From NCBI RefSeq assembly GCF_005405125.1, contig NZ_BJDL01000020.1, forward strand, positions 1-64,000: 64,000 nucleotides of DNA. Direction: 5' to 3'. The notes below the pieces were generated by a model that did no database searches, was not told where the DNA came from, and saw nothing but the letters and a program-made list of their open reading frames with translations. Both the position numbers and the translations under genes were made by a program. This document shows positions 177 through 59,230 of this stretch, piece after piece. Positions within the stretch are counted from its first letter, which is position 1; every line of letters starts with the position of its first letter. This DNA is from Lactiplantibacillus songbeiensis. Its GTDB lineage: Bacteria; Bacillota; Bacilli; Lactobacillales; Lactobacillaceae.

Positions 177-398
177 AGTGTTAGTTTCAGTGGCTTAACG
201 TTAGTTTATAAACAATCAATAATTAACGTCGGGTGGGCCAGAATTGGTTCAGTGGTGTCGTTTATCTTAGTCACGGGTTTCGACTTAGATAAAGTCCGGC
301 TTTCGAGACCGCACGATGGCTCGAAAACGCGGCCACCACGTTCCAGCCGATTCTGGACCAACCAGAGTGGCAATTTAAGCTAACTATCACTAAGCGTA
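177..398 (+). repeat. palindromic intergenic repeat, module B with a degenerate left end
   Basis: The segment from about 221 to 398 matches module B of the composite repeat found at eight other loci in this window: the start near AATTAACGTCGGG, the TTTATCTTAGTC hairpin, the TTTCGAG/CTCGAAA stem and the ACCAGAGTGGCAATTTAA end. A diverged left terminal sequence (about 177-198) suggests an internally deleted composite. It lies directly upstream of the phosphatase gene. The stretch 18-176 before it holds the promoter of the leftward gene and nothing else I recognise. Confidence 0.75.
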
Positions 399-12518: not shown

Positions 12519-12919
12519 ATACGCTTGGTGCTAGTTGAAATTACCGCCTGCCGGTCGGTTTCTAAAATGCTGGAACGCTATGGGCCATTTTGAAGCCAAA
12601 AATGAGGTCTTCAAAACTGACCTTGGTCTAAGTCCGAGCAAAACACTCACGCTAAGGCCAACGACCCGGTTGAGCATTTTAGGAACCAACCTCTCGGCTA
12701 AATTAGTGGTCGACAATAGATAGTCATTAACTCCTGTTAATTAACGCCGGGCGGGTCAGAATTGGCTCAGTGGTGTCGTTTATCTTAGTCGGTGATTTTC
12801 CGACTTAGATAAAGCCCGGCTTTCGAGACCGCACTATGGCTCGAAAACGTGGCCACCACGTTCCAGCCGATTCTGGCCCAACCAGAGTGGCAATTTAAGT
12901 CAACTAGTACCAAGCGTAT
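12519..12919 (+). repeat. composite MITE-like intergenic repeat (modules A+B)
   Basis: About 400 bp. The left end GCTTGGTGCTAGTTGAAAT and the right end, read on the other strand (GCTTGGTACTAGTTGACTT), are imperfect inverted repeats. Module A (about 12550-12712) is a large palindrome with CTAAAATGCT and AGCATTTTAG arms. Module B (about 12745-12897) contains the TTTATCTTAGTCGG hairpin and the TTTCGAG/CTCGAAA stem. It lies between the ABC-F gene and the ykoEDC terminator and has no coding potential. Confidence 0.85.
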
Positions 12920-15687: not shown

Positions 15688-15840
15688 ACAAAAAACGCCT
15701 GACAGTAGTTAACAGCTACTGCCAGACGGCTAAGTCTTGATTGATGGTTCCCCAAAAAAGCATTGCTCCCTGCGCTGGCATTATCCAGATTCAGGTTCAA
15801 TGGGTATTCTCTCAGCCGTATGGCACCCCAGTTGCTATGA
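15688..15840 (-). promoter_or_regulatory. TPP (THI-box) riboswitch with terminator platform
   Basis: On the minus strand the core reads GGGGTGCC, CTGAGAgaaTACCC, TTGAACCTGA, TGGATAATGCCAGCG and AGGGAGC (about 15835 down to 15761), the conserved thiamine pyrophosphate aptamer. Downstream a stem built on TCTGGCAGTAG and CTACTGTCAG (about 15696-15732) followed by TTTTTT (15690-15695) is the terminator that ligand binding would favour. It precedes ykoE, so high TPP shuts off the transporter. Confidence 0.95.
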
Positions 15841-15978
15841 ATGATTATGTTCAGTGTACCGGAATTCAAATGATAGCGCAATCAAATTTCACACCATCTG
15901 AGCAAAGGTTACTCAAAAGTCATGCTTTTGTGCTTTAATTTAGTTAGCGAGTTGGGTTAACTTAACGATTGCTGCTAC

Positions 15979-16124
15979 GGTTGCTCCGGACTGATGCTGG
16001 AACGTGGTGGCCACGTTTTTGAGCCGAATGGCGGTCTCAAAAGTCGGGTTTTATCTAAGCTGGGAAATCGTCAGCCAAGATGAACGACACCACTGAGCAT
16101 TATCCAGGCCGTCCTGCGCTAGTG
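15979..16124 (-). repeat. diverged module B repeat, minus orientation
   Basis: Recognised on the minus strand by CACCACTGAG-side and GCTGGAACGTGGTGGCC blocks and the stem TTTTGAG/CTCAAAA, which replaces the TTTCGAG/CTCGAAA seen in other copies while keeping pairing. Ends are degraded and module A is absent. It fills most of the gap between the ykoE riboswitch and the peroxidase gene; the rest of 15841-16250 holds only the peroxidase promoter region. Confidence 0.7.
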
Positions 16125-19615: not shown

Positions 19616-20039
19616 GTTAGTAAATACGCTTGGTGCTAGTTGAAATTGCCGCCTGCCGGTTGGATTCTAAAATGCTGGAACGCCATGGGCCATTTTGAAG
19701 CCAAAGCCCGGTCTTTAAAACTGGCCTTGGCCTAAGTCCGAGCAACCCACTCGCACTAAAGTCAACGACACGGCTGAGCATTTTAGAATCCAACCTCTTG
19801 GCTAACTAACGGGAATTAAATAATTAATCGTTAATTTTTTAATTTCCGTTAGTTAACGCCGGGCGGTCCAGAATTGGCTCAGTGGTGTCGTTTATCTTAG
19901 TCGGTGATTTTCCGACTTAGATAAAGCCCGGCTTGTGAGACCGGTCTGTGGCTCGCAAACGCGGCCACCACGTTCCAGCCGATTCTGGGCCAACCAGAGT
20001 GGCAACTTAATCCAACTAGCACCAAGCGTTAGTAAATAC
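19616..20039 (+). repeat. complete composite MITE-like repeat with flanking direct repeat
   Basis: The best-preserved copy. The element runs 19628-20027 (400 bp) from GCTTGGTGCTAGTTG to CAACTAGCACCAAGC, and is bordered on both sides by the same 12 bases GTTAGTAAATAC (19616-19627 and 20028-20039). Module A carries the arms GGTTGGATTCTAAAATGCT (19662 on) and its near-perfect complement before 19800. Module B carries the TTTATCTTAGTCGG hairpin and a TTGTGAG/CTCGCAA stem. There is no open reading frame. Confidence 0.9.
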
Positions 20040-21636: not shown

Positions 21637-21671
21637 CTTGCCACTCTGGTTGGCCCAACCAGAGTGGCAAG
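21637..21671. repeat. perfect 17-bp palindrome derived from the repeat family
   Basis: CTTGCCACTCTGGTTGG, one base, then its exact complement. The arm is the terminal sequence of module B seen in all other copies. It appears to be a collapsed remnant that keeps only the right end and its mirror image, just upstream of pepD. Confidence 0.75.
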
Positions 21672-27561: not shown

Positions 27562-27726
27562 TGAAATTGCCACTCTGGTTGGCCCAGAATCGGCTGGAAC
27601 GTGGTGGCCGCGTTTGTGAACCGAGGTGTGGTCTCACAAGCCGGGCTTTGACTAAGCTGAGAAAGTCACTCAACTAAGTCAAACGACACCACTGAGCCAA
27701 TTCTGGGCCGCCCGCCGTTAATTAAC
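27562..27726 (-). repeat. module B repeat, minus orientation
   Basis: It starts TGAAATTGCCACTCTGGTTGG and ends at GCCGCCCGCCGTTAATTAAC, the reverse of the right half of the composite. Its inner hairpin reads TTTGACTTAGTTGAG/CTCAGCTTAGTCAAA, with ATC/GAT of other copies changed to GAC/GTC on both arms. No module A is attached. The remaining 27727-27952 is AT-rich and holds the trxA promoter region. Confidence 0.85.
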
Positions 27727-31199: not shown

Positions 31200-31556
31200 T
31201 CTGCCTACCGGTTGATTCCTAAAATGCTGGAACGTCATGGGCCATTTTAAAGCCAAAGTTCGGTCTTCAAAACCGACCTTGGCCTAAGTCCGAGAAAATC
31301 ACTCGCACTAAGGCCAACACCACGGCTAAGCATTTAAGAATCAACCTCTCGGCTAGACTAATGGGTTAAAATAGACATTTATAAGTGTTGATTAATTAAC
31401 GTCGGGCGGGTCAGACTTGGCTAAGTGGTGTCGTTTATCTTAGTCGGTGGTTTTCCGACTTAGATAAAGCCCGGCTTGGGAGACCACACTTTGGCTTCCA
31501 AACGCGGTCACCGCGTTCCAGCCAATTCTGGCCCAACCAGAGTGGCAATTATAATC
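31200..31556 (+). repeat. composite repeat (A+B), left end missing
   Basis: Module A begins at CTGCCTACCGGTTGATTCC, three bases after the DUF2252 stop, and its palindrome closes with GAATCAACC near 31350; the GATTC/GAATC change on both arms keeps pairing. Module B follows (about 31392-31556) and ends at ACCAGAGTGGCAATTATAA. The left terminal repeat is absent, perhaps lost when the element met the gene end. Confidence 0.8.
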
Positions 31557-35010: not shown

Positions 35011-35403
35011 ATACTTGGTGCTATTTGGTGTAAGTTGCCACTCTGGTTGGTCCAGAATCGGCTGGAACGTGGTGGCCGCGTTTGTGAGCCGAAGAGCGGT
35101 CTCACAAGCCGGGCTTTGACTAACCCGGAAAAATCACCGGCTAAGTCAAACGACACCACTGAGCCAATTCTGGCCCGCCCGCCGTTAGTTAGTCGATATT
35201 TATAAAATGTTCAATCAACAAATTTAGCCGAGCCGTTGGTTCCTAAAATGCTCAGCCGTGTCGTTGGCCTTAGTGCGAGTGGCCTGCTCGGACTTAGGCC
35301 AAGGCCAGCTTTGAAGACCGAACTTTGGCTTCGAAATGGCCCATGGCGTTCCAGCGTTTTAGGAACCAACCGGCAGGCGACAATTTCAACTAGCACCAAG
35401 CGT
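35011..35403 (-). repeat. complete composite repeat, minus orientation
   Basis: Reading left to right, the right end of module B comes first (ACTTGGTGCTATTTGG, then GCCACTCTGGTTGG), then module B to about 35190, then module A (GTTGGTTCCTAAAATGCT at 35234 against AGCGTTTTAGGAACCAAC) and the other terminus ACTAGCACCAAGCG. Its inner stems are TTTGACTTAGCCGG/CCGGGTTAGTCAAA and TTGTGAG/CTCACAA, both altered on both arms compared with other copies. It lies behind rbsU. Confidence 0.88.
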
Positions 35404-40795: not shown

Positions 40796-41081
40796 ACGTC
40801 TGATGCTAGGTGAAATTATGGCCTACCACTTAGTTTCTGAAAGGCTGAAACGCCATGGCTGAGCATTTTAAGAAATGAGTTTAAATTGTTGAGTGAAAAA
40901 TAACCAAGCGTTAATTTAACGGCGGGCGGTCCAGAATTGGCTCAGTGGTGTCGTTTATCTTAGTCGGTGATTTTCCGACTTAGATAAAGCCCGGCTTTCG
41001 AGACCGCACTGTGGCTCGAAAACGCGGCCACCACGTTCCAGCCAATTCTGGGCCAACCAGAGTGACAAGTTGAAGTTGACA
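40796..41081 (+). repeat. composite repeat with shortened module A, abutting the trp promoter
   Basis: The left end is degenerate (ACGTCTGATGCTAGGTGAAAT) and module A is reduced to about 70 bases (GGCCTACCACTTAGTTTC to AAGAAATGAG). Module B (40913-41063) is complete, with TTTCGAG/CTCGAAA. The right end, CAGAGTGACAAGTTGAAG, runs straight into TTGACA, the -35 of the trpE promoter. Confidence 0.8.
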
Positions 41082-41402
41082 AAGTTCTCATTAAAGTTTA
41101 ATCTAAACGGCAATTAAAAAAGTTCGTCCAAAAACCGATGAGATGGAGATCAAGATGACCGGGCCCGCCCAGAGAGCGACTATTGCTGTGAATGTTGCCG
41201 AATGCCAGTCATTAAATGGACCATTGAGGGTTCCCGCGAAATAAGAGTACCGGGAAACGTTAGGCAGACGTCACTGCCAGCAAGGTGTTAGCCTTGTTTA
41301 GAGGGAACGGGTTAGTTATCGCAACTAACGCGTTAATTAAGGTGGTACCGCGGAGTGAATCCGTCCTTAAACGTTGCAAAACGTTTTTGGGCGGATTTTT
41401 TA
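41076..41402 (+). promoter_or_regulatory. trpE promoter and tryptophan T-box leader
   Basis: TTGACA (41076-41081) and TAATCT (41099-41104) with 17-base spacing start the leader. The T-box has the specifier TGG (41217-41219, Trp) in TTAAATGGACC, the T-box sequence AAGGTGGTACCGCGG (41339-41353) that pairs with the tRNA acceptor end, and a terminator (TCCGTCC to GGGCGGA then TTTTTT, about 41363-41402). Uncharged tRNA-Trp would stabilise the antiterminator and allow transcription of trpEG. Confidence 0.95.
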
Positions 41403-41486: not shown

Positions 41487-42932
41487 ATGAATCTAAAAAC
41501 GCTACAACAACTAAGTCAAAGTTACCCCATGGTGCCCGTAACCTTACAATATCAAGTCGATCAATTTGATCCAGTGGCCGTGACCGCGGCACTACAAACG
41601 CCTACGCAACCGTGTTTTCTATTAACCGGCCAACCGAAACCCAATGAAGCTGGCTATAGTTTTATCGGTGTGCGCCCGCAACAAACCTTGACGTATCGCA
41701 ATGGTCAGCTAACGGTGACGACAGCTGACAAAATAACGCAGACTAAAACCGCATTAAAACCAGTCCTGCAGCACTTAATGACCGTTAACCAAACGCCTAA
41801 GATTCCTGGCTTACCGCCTTTTACTGGTGGCTTGGCAGGGTACTTTAGTTATGATTATGCGCGTTATGCCAATCCCACCTTACCGCAACATCCGGCCGAC
41901 CCAGATCATCTGAATGATGCTGATCTATTAGTGGTGGATCAGGTCATTGGTTATAACCACCAAACGCATCAAGTCACCTTGTCACAGTTAGTCTCAACGG
42001 CAACCTTGGCGACGCGTTATGCCACGGTAATGGCGGATTTGCGGGCCCTTAAACAGCGACTTGCCACTTGTCTGGAACCCGCGCTGCCGACATTACGGTT
42101 ACTGACACCGTTGACGCTAGCTTTTGATTTGCCGACGTTTACCGCCAAGGTCGCCCAAACGAAGCAGCATATTCGCCAAGGTGATATTTTTCAGTTGATC
42201 TTATCAAACCCACAACGGGCACAGATGACGGGGCCATTATTCAACTTAACCCGAACCTTATTTCCAGCCAGTCCGGCGCCGTATCAATTTTACTTTCGGC
42301 ACGGTGATTTCGAGACGGTTGGGGCTTCACCGGAGACGCTGATTAAAAAACAAGGGGATAAGCTAGTGACTTATCCGTTAGCAGGTACTCGGCGACGAGG
42401 AAGAACGGCTGCTGAAGATATGGCGTTGGCCCGTGAATTAATGACTAGTCCGAAAGAATTGGCGGAACATAATATGCTGATTGACTTGGGCCGCAATGAT
42501 TTAGGCAAAGTCAGTCAGTTTGGTAGTGTACAAGTGACTCGGACGCGGCAACTGTTGAAGTTCAGCCAAGTGATGCACTTGGGATCAACAGTTGAAAGTC
42601 GGGTGGCAGCAGGAACGTCTCCGATTGATATCATCGAGTCGCTAATGCCAGCGGGAACGCTATCGGGCGCCCCTAAAGTTCGGGCAATGCAACTGATTAG
42701 TGAGCTTGAACAGCGCAAGCGCGGTATTTATGGCGGTTGCTTAGGATACTTAGATTTCAATGGTGATTTGGATTTCTGTATTGGCATTCGTTTGGCCTAT
42801 CGACAAGGCGCCCAACTAGTCGTACATTCTGGTGCGGGCATTGTGGCCGATAGTTGTGCCAAACATGAATTTCAAGAGTTCAATCATAAAGCGCGCGCGG
42901 TCGTGCAAGCGCTAAAGGTGGTGGCGCAATGA
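41487..42932 (+). CDS. trpE: anthranilate synthase component I
   Basis: 481 residues, chorismate-binding fold. GDIFQLILSNPQRA, YPLAGTRRRGRT, DLGRNDLGKVSQFG and GTLSGAPKVRAMQLI are the active-site blocks for chorismate and Mg. With TrpG it makes anthranilate from chorismate and glutamine. The usual N-terminal feedback motif LLES appears as LLTG in this protein, so tryptophan sensitivity may differ; this is inference. AAGGAG precedes ATG 41487. The stop overlaps the trpG start by four bases. Confidence 0.95.
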   Translation: MNLKTLQQLSQSYPMVPVTLQYQVDQFDPVAVTAALQTPTQPCFLLTGQPKPNEAGYSFIGVRPQQTLTYRNGQLTVTTADKITQTKTALKPVLQHLMTVNQTPKIPGLPPFTGGLAGYFSYDYARYANPTLPQHPADPDHLNDADLLVVDQVIGYNHQTHQVTLSQLVSTATLATRYATVMADLRALKQRLATCLEPALPTLRLLTPLTLAFDLPTFTAKVAQTKQHIRQGDIFQLILSNPQRAQMTGPLFNLTRTLFPASPAPYQFYFRHGDFETVGASPETLIKKQGDKLVTYPLAGTRRRGRTAAEDMALARELMTSPKELAEHNMLIDLGRNDLGKVSQFGSVQVTRTRQLLKFSQVMHLGSTVESRVAAGTSPIDIIESLMPAGTLSGAPKVRAMQLISELEQRKRGIYGGCLGYLDFNGDLDFCIGIRLAYRQGAQLVVHSGAGIVADSCAKHEFQEFNHKARAVVQALKVVAQ

Positions 42933-43530: not shown

Positions 43531-43872
43531 TTGACTTTCATCAAAAACAGCCTTATTCTCAATAACAACCAAATAAGTTCGTCCATAAACCGATGAGATG
43601 GAGATCAAGATAATTGTGCACGTAAAGAGAGCGGCCGCTGCTGAGAGTGCCGTCGAACGCAGATTATTAAATGGACCATCGAGGGTTCCCGCGAAACTGT
43701 AGTACCGGGAAACGTTAGGCATACGTCAATTGTCGGCAGGGTGTTAGCCCTGTGCTAAGCGTAATTAATTGAGGGACTGTCTGAGCAGTCGTCGATTAAT
43801 TAAATTAAGGTGGCACCGCGGAATAATCCGTCCTTAAACGTAGGTAAACTGCGTTTATGGGCGGATTTTTTG
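43531..43872 (+). promoter_or_regulatory. internal promoter and second tryptophan T-box
   Basis: TTGACT (43531-43536) and TATTCT (43554-43559), spacing 17, lie just before a second full T-box (about 43575-43872). It has the same stem I start (AGTTCGTCCATAAACCGATG), specifier TGG at 43672-43674, AAGGTGGCACCGCGG at 43807-43821 and a terminator ending GGGCGGATTTTTT. The copy is clearly homologous to the first but diverged in the middle, so trpDCFBA is controlled separately by tRNA-Trp. Confidence 0.95.
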
Positions 43873-58715: not shown

Positions 58716-58798
58716 CGTTAGCTCAGTCCTTACTATTAGTAAATTTATCTTGAGTTTAGCATAGAAGCATGGCGTAAGTGTGAAAAATCCATTCTGAA

Positions 58799-59230
58799 TT
58801 GACCAGAGTGGTAAGCTAATCCAACTAGCAATAAACGATGGCTACGTTTGGTGCTAGTTGAAATTGCCGCTGCCGGTTAGATTCTAAAATACTGGAACGC
58901 CATGGGCCATTTTGAAGCTCAAAACGGTCTTTAAAACTGACCTTGGTCTAAGTCCGGGAAAGACACTCGCACTAAGGTCAACGATACGGCTATTTTAGAA
59001 TCCGACCTCTCGGCTAAGTAACTGAACTAAAAATAATCAATCGTTAATTCTTAAATTCCCGTTAGTTAACGACGGGCAGACCAGAATTGGCTCAGTGGTG
59101 TCGTTTATCTTAGCCGTGGTTTTCGGCTTAGATAAAGCCCGGCTTGCGAGACCGATCTTTGGCTCGCAAACGTGGCCACCACGTTCCAGCCAATTCTGGG
59201 CCAACCAGAGTGACATTTTAGTACCAAACG
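58799..59230 (+). repeat. composite repeat inserted next to an older repeat end
   Basis: 58799-58837 is the right end of one element (GACCAGAGTGGTAAGCTAAT and ACTAGCAATAAACG). A second, complete composite follows from 58845 (CGTTTGGTGCTAGTTGAAAT) to 59230 (GTACCAAACG). The bases ATGGCTA flank it on both sides (58838-58844 and 59231-59237), consistent with a target duplication. Stems include TTTATCTTAGCCG/CGGCTTAGATAAA and TTGCGAG/CTCGCAA, both changed on both arms relative to other copies. Confidence 0.88.

Follow-up and report, generated by a model that had tools for sequence, protein, structure and literature searches.

The repeats of about 400 bp found in Lactiplantibacillus songbeiensis are MITEs: short, transposase-free elements with inverted ends and target duplications, at sites that can be found empty in related DNA. 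The reading preferred here, to which we give a probability of roughly 0.7, is that they form a family moved in trans by IS982 transposases and carrying an old module kept as folded DNA. The window, that is, the whole stretch of DNA analysed, comprises 64,000 nucleotides of a 95.5-kb contig from a draft genome of 3.03 Mb in 50 contigs.

An earlier note had listed nine loci of the window sharing one or both of two palindromic modules. The common modules were recovered at 9/9 loci by direct-repeat families D1-D6 and D8-D10 (D7 is something else, outside the element family), with 34 inverted pairs, and by the covariance model R1, whose 15 window modules include one or more from every locus, the weakest being that at 40826-40880 (E 0.0025). 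The modules are real, but they are not two different ones, both arms of the element being copies of a single branched hairpin of ~137 bp in inverted orientation. Both modules are present at 12519-12919, 19616-20039, 31200-31556, 35011-35403 (reversed, so that the family occurs in both orientations, as the earlier note had said) and 58799-59230, and according to R1 one module only at 177-398, 15979-16124 and 27562-27726 (Table 1). The nine loci cover ~4.4% of the window when the spans listed in the earlier note are summed. The genome as a whole contains at least 40 near-full copies, 84-100% identical by BLAST across 359 or more of 424 bases; from 359 candidates at first look 40 were scored, and all 40 were near-full. 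Their similarity is beyond chance, with E values down to 5e-193 for other copies, and the 16-base terminus with up to 3 mismatches occurs at 279 sites, compared with 42 for a reversed control. R1 modules number at least 150 in this genome (the 150 listed are all at E 3.5e-31 or better), and the 18 found in the window's contig would extrapolate, from that one contig, to ~570. The fold z-scores of the element are -14.6 as RNA and -12.1 as DNA.

Table 1. Elements, modules and flanking duplications located in the window
Feature	Position	Strand	Basis and remarks
Full MITE copy, 402 bp	19627..20028	+	Termini CGCTTGGTGCTAGTTG / inverted complement; empty site in L. dongliensis L061
Left target duplication TTAGTAAATA (10 bp)	19617..19626	.	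Flank comparison
Right target duplication TTAGTAAATA (10 bp)	20029..20038	.	Flank comparison
Module A of the 19627-20028 copy, branched hairpin reading outward	19656..19795	-	R1, 132.2 bits
Module B of the 19627-20028 copy, branched hairpin reading outward	19861..19997	+	R1, 151.7 bits
AT-rich central hairpin between modules A and B, sequence variable	19796..19860	.	Sequence, folding, alignment
Full copy, same site in L. dongliensis (older insertion)	12522..12916	+	Cross-species comparison, ends, duplication scan
Full copy, reverse orientation; modules 35043-35180 (-) and 35234-35373 (+)	35012..35402	-	Ends, duplication scan, R1
Two-module copy; modules 31208-31347 (-) and 31404-31540 (+)	31200..31556	+	R1
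Two-module copy; modules 58873-59007 (-) and 59074-59208 (+); adjoins fragment of another copy, 58791-58837	58799..59230	+	Repeats, R1
Copy with module B 40924-41060 (+) and remnant of A 40826-40880 (-)	40796..41081	+	R1
Single module	231..365	+	R1
Single module, same site in L. dongliensis	15977..16114	-	R1, cross-species comparison
Single module, same site in L. dongliensis	27575..27713	-	R1, cross-species comparison
33-bp hairpin remnant TTGCCACTCTGGTTGG/CCCAACCAGAGTGGCAA; ~525-bp two-module element there in L. dongliensis	21638..21670	.	Cross-species comparison

The copy at 19627-20028 reads CGCTTGG...CCAAGCG, its 16-base ends showing 0 mismatches on both sides. Modules A and B are inverted relatives, and the element, aligned with its own reverse strand, is 69% identical to it along almost its entire length. 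When 26 of the 30 copies fetched were aligned, the modules proved conserved and the centre did not, and four copies (L101, L107, L115 and L116; 307-325 bp) make up a sub-family with a common deletion inside module A, from positions ~60-63 to 138-139. No open reading frame of at least 80 aa was found in the five two-module copies of the window, in agreement with the previous observation that the elements encode no transposase. The claim that they always lie between genes held as well: none of 36 elements is inside a longer mechanical ORF, and such an ORF overlaps one element edge in 7/36, ORFs wholly within an element being set aside in this count.

Several neighbouring features deserve mention. 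A TPP riboswitch (15748-15840, minus strand) is located near the single module at 15977-16114. Two other repeats of the window, 41098-41273 and 43553-43728, are 79% identical. The repeat at 43553-43728 overlaps with an Rfam T-box (43584-43838); that at 41098-41273, which is directly preceded by the MITE copy 40796-41081, precedes an anthranilate-synthase-like gene (41487-42932). The T-box overlap of the one and the gene that follows the other suggest that 41098-41273 is likely a second T-box leader. Eleven contig ends of the L. songbeiensis assembly (L104-L114) run in or beside element hairpins, and hence the repeats may break short-read assemblies; these ends were chosen for a nearby element end.

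The insertion of the elements has left duplications of the target. Taking CGCTTGG...CCAAGCG as the element bounds, we compared the two flanks of 34 of the 39 copies for duplication lengths from 4 to 20. Lengths of 9, 10 and 11 bp stood out (z 4.2, 5.9 and 4.8; 0/1000 shuffles each), followed by 14 bp (z 2.4). The identical 12-base repeat previously reported to border the 19628-20027 copy exists, but it takes in the element's own terminal C/G; the target duplication proper is the 10 bp TTAGTAAATA. Strain comparison, which the earlier note had recommended, disclosed reciprocal empty sites between L. songbeiensis and its sister species L. dongliensis 218-3. In the latter the 19627-20028 site is empty and carries a single GTGAGTAAATAC, with a different element copy ~300 bp away; conversely, L. 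dongliensis copies flanked by TATTCTAGTA and TAATCAAGT duplications lie at sites that are empty in L. songbeiensis, where in turn a 152-bp mini copy with AATGATATT is present that L. dongliensis does not have. The flanks have diverged in places, so that the position of the empty sites is clear although not every letter agrees. Both species have the copy at 12519 and the single modules of loci 15979 and 27562, and the five loci compared in L. daowaiensis (12519, 15979, 19616, 27562 and 31200) are all much shorter there and without the element. The 33-bp remnant of Table 1 looks like the product of a palindrome collapse, judging from the comparison of the two sequences.

An IS with the same terminal sequence, the search for which had also been proposed, was found in a congener and not in the L. 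songbeiensis genome. The Lactiplantibacillus genome G014 contains element copies together with a 956-bp IS982-family IS (locus L234) with an open 290-aa frame. The left end of this IS, CGCTTGGTGCTAGTTGA, is identical to the MITE terminus over 17 bases, and its right end differs at 2 of 15 positions. Five MITE copies of the same genome are 84-88% identical to the 19627-20028 copy over nearly its full length. A second IS982 copy lies ~290 bp from the first (L234, 1465-3483), the two transposases being 97% identical, and runs off the locus. The scan for partners covered 30 PF01609 loci (28 plus two from L. songbeiensis itself) from 21 genomes of the genus, whose matches are more numerous than these loci. 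At 5/30 loci the ORF lies between inward-facing ends having at most 2 mismatches in 13; they correspond to four distinct places (L224 and L236 are one). Ends with 3 mismatches in 15 enclose the ORF at three further loci. These eight loci harbour elements of 956-983 bp with related transposases, and the 3/3 transposases tested score 222-264 bits against NCBIfam NF033520 (IS982), whose cut-off is 130. Perfect duplications, TATTTATATA and TTAAGCCTA (10 and 9 bp; 9-11 bp in the MITEs), border 2/7 IS982 copies; a third copy has an imperfect one (9 of 11 bases), and the other 4/7, including L234, the closest to the MITE, are without clear duplication.

The common termini, together with a duplication length that is alike in 2/7 IS copies, might be taken to mean that the element arose from one IS982 element by simple internal deletion, for which a precedent exists in MITECca01/ISCca4 of Cardinium, as described in the available part of that report (PMC9769881). 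We consider this very improbable. The identity between MITE and IS ends after ~17-18 bp, only the ends being common and the sub-terminal sequence not shared; the R1 module was matched in just 1/30 transposase loci (L222, 26.7 bits), whose transposase is unlike that of IS982; and twin modules of 20 loci from other species, considered below, do not have IS982-type ends. Mobilisation in trans by an IS982-type transposase is, in contrast, the most likely explanation of the shared ends, the duplications and the empty sites taken together, and the earlier suggestion that these are non-autonomous elements moved in trans is strengthened by the same three observations. In L. songbeiensis itself no intact IS982 was found among the PF01609 (DDE_Tnp_1) matches, which consist of two remnants unlike the IS982 transposase, so that we infer the mover there; the genome being a draft in 50 contigs, an IS982 copy could be missing from it. 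Two other candidates were discarded in this genome. An IS256-type transposase (PF00872) had no match, and an autonomous partner enclosed by distant inward ends was not encountered, since the three pairs lying 3.4-5.3 kb apart, drawn from the 100 listed of the 279 end sites, hold neighbouring elements and ordinary genes.

The second part of the preferred reading concerns the ~137-bp module. An alignment of 40 modules from the genus (A2), folded with RNAalifold, gave 38 pairs, 22 of them with compensatory changes, and a covariation of 0.46 versus 0.166 in shuffled alignments. R1, which was built on these 40 modules, had matches under stricter filters in 87/301 Lactobacillaceae genomes, belonging to 14/40 genera; in an order-wide sample it matched 22/345 genomes, including a single, weak match beyond the family (E 3.6e-4). 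A further alignment (A4) was made of 37 modules that had not been used for R1, 30/37 of them from other genera and six genera in all, which were aligned and folded anew. The same fold was obtained, with 43 pairs, 37 of them compensatory, and a covariation of 0.632 versus 0.186 shuffled; these modules were found with R1 and to a degree therefore fit its fold. The unpaired positions are also fixed: the module has a CA/GTTCC internal loop, a T.T mismatch and an A.G mismatch. In A4 the inner unpaired columns are more conserved than the paired ones (0.847 vs 0.721, one-sided p 0.005).

This conservation bears on the possibility that the element is an ordinary foldback MITE, in which template switching at replication would correct imperfect palindromes and this alone would keep the pairing, the fold having no function. 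Changes that are mostly Watson-Crick on both strands agree with such a process, and palindromes do rearrange here, as the 21638-21670 remnant suggests. Correction would, however, erase the T.T, the A.G and the CA/GTTCC loop, yet all 11 columns that they occupy are 92-100% conserved in A4, across six genera, which makes this explanation improbable.

Modules tend to occur as twins. Of 46 module pairs separated by less than 500 bp, 42 are divergent, 4 tandem and none convergent; some of the close pairs represent one insertion shared by related species, so that the 46 are not independent events. The 4 tandem pairs are all in loci of four Levilactobacillus species (L092, L093, L094 and L098). IS982-type ends were sought at 20 twins of other species, 15 of them from other genera, and none beyond background was found, the best end match within 120 bp having 5-8 mismatches of 15. 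The module is hence not tied to an IS982 IS. By eye, the outer flanks of the twins L149, L063 and L064 seem to carry an end of another type, resembling AAAGGTTGAAAGTA, which L149 has on either side and which may perhaps belong to a different IS partner. In genome G020 (L033-L060), also by eye, a B-like module and a different, apparently related module C diverge from an AT-rich centre, module C being long in 8/15 loci read and shortened or unlike in the rest. Among plasmids and phages the element was unmatched; the module gave one weak match in a Rhizobium plasmid (E 9e-3), and R1 confirmed neither of two pattern matches in viral contigs.

A fold that is conserved to this extent could be maintained as RNA or as DNA. 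According to the first alternative, the modules would be structured RNAs in host transcripts, acting as processing or stability signals with one sense module per direction, and mobility would only spread them. The strong covariation of A2 and A4 and the conserved unpaired bases are what a structured RNA would display, and the outward strand folds better in 4/4 alignments compared. The wobble ratio of A4 also leans 2:1 to one strand (15 vs 5 columns, p 0.04), which, with the better fold of that strand (-61.8, versus -52.0 for the other), would fit RNA. Taken as a whole, however, the wobble pairs weaken this reading. At pairs predicted on both strands, G.U and A.C cells are nearly balanced, 35:18 in A4 (2.3% G.U) and 21:29 in A2 (1.9% G.U), whereas RNase P RNA of 30 Lactobacillaceae, treated by the same procedure, gave 70:9 and 5.5% G.U, so that G.U is less than half as common in the modules. 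Fisher's test of the differences from RNase P gave p 0.002 for A4 and 2.5e-8 for A2, with cells treated as independent though the copies are related. Copies from the L. songbeiensis genome with a few from L061 are equivocal, at 17:17 for module A and 25:15 for module B, and any RNA signal is drawn towards 1:1 as dead copies decay. RNase P RNA took the place of 6S RNA as control, the latter having given 7:5 on 14 sequences and 5:1 at a stricter threshold, numbers that are too small and come from a poor alignment; for a tRNA control, ARAGORN found no genes on 18 loci. Two further observations are unfavourable to structured RNAs. The gene contexts of 36 elements were 10 divergent, 10 ++, 8 --, 7 convergent and 1 at the window edge, with no orientation bias relative to genes among the 35 classified and no sign of a cis role for the elements in this mixture, and no terminator-like T run is present in the sequence at the ends of the 19627-20028 copy. 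Thus a role as structured RNA seems rather unlikely, and the rarity of G.U with respect to RNase P, together with an almost purely Watson-Crick covariation, leads us to lean, from these patterns of substitution, towards a module kept as folded DNA.

The mechanism that we propose on this basis is as follows. An IS982-family transposase would recognise the ~17-bp end CGCTTGGTGCTAGTTGA at both extremes of the ~400-bp gene-less element and insert it into AT-rich intergenic DNA with a target duplication of 9-11 bp. Between the ends would lie the two inverted ~137-bp modules, each predicted to form a three-way-junction hairpin with the CA/GTTCC loop and the T.T and A.G mismatches. The module would represent the old, conserved part; the outer ends differ in the twins examined from other species. 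More probably than an RNA, the module would be a site for recognition or processing in DNA that is extruded or single-stranded. As a tentative extension, for which the odds seem somewhat less than even, the ~137-bp DNA hairpins would have spread through the Lactobacillaceae as divergent twins fitted with different IS ends in different lineages; the module would then be a structured unit independent of any transposase, its folded form being recognised by a cellular or element-encoded protein.

The earlier note did not recognise a named family, and none has come to light. Rfam 15 gives two matches in the window, neither of them in an element, and none in 20 loci; a relaxed search against it offered no plausible match up to E 10; and no paper on these repeats was found in the literature, judged from titles, starts of abstracts and some passages. 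Integron attC sites resemble the module in conserving structure rather than sequence and in having fixed unpaired bases. A tyrosine recombinase acts on attC sites and leaves no target duplication, whereas DDE transposases make duplications, as seen here. BOX, RUP and SPRITE of Streptococcus pneumoniae, and the ERIC/RU, NEMIS and Efa repeats, are likewise abundant intergenic folding repeats, in part MITE-like; their sizes and ends appear to differ from those of our element. The closest relative in kind may be compared in what is available of the report on MITECca01, an IS982-derived MITE of ~240 bp from one endosymbiont lineage, Cardinium (PMC9769881). It too is a short gene-less repeat, carrying the ends of an IS982-family IS that is believed to maintain it; it differs in keeping a 5-bp piece of the parent IS beyond the left end, and that part of the report describes no cross-genus branched module (PMC9769881). 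A MITE with an IS982 partner is therefore of a known kind, and the cross-genus twin module is absent from Rfam 15 and from the literature found.

As a MITE, the element joins the other non-autonomous passengers of IS982-type elements. Its cargo is unusual: a branched fold with heavy compensatory change, present in 14/40 genera, in at least 150 copies in one genome, and not in Rfam 15. The elements provide markers for strain comparison in food lactobacilli, and their hairpins may account for adjoining assembly breaks. If the fold is kept as DNA, selection would be acting here on an extruded or single-stranded DNA structure, which is rare for a chromosomal repeat so widespread, and the mismatches and the internal loop would be candidate contact points.
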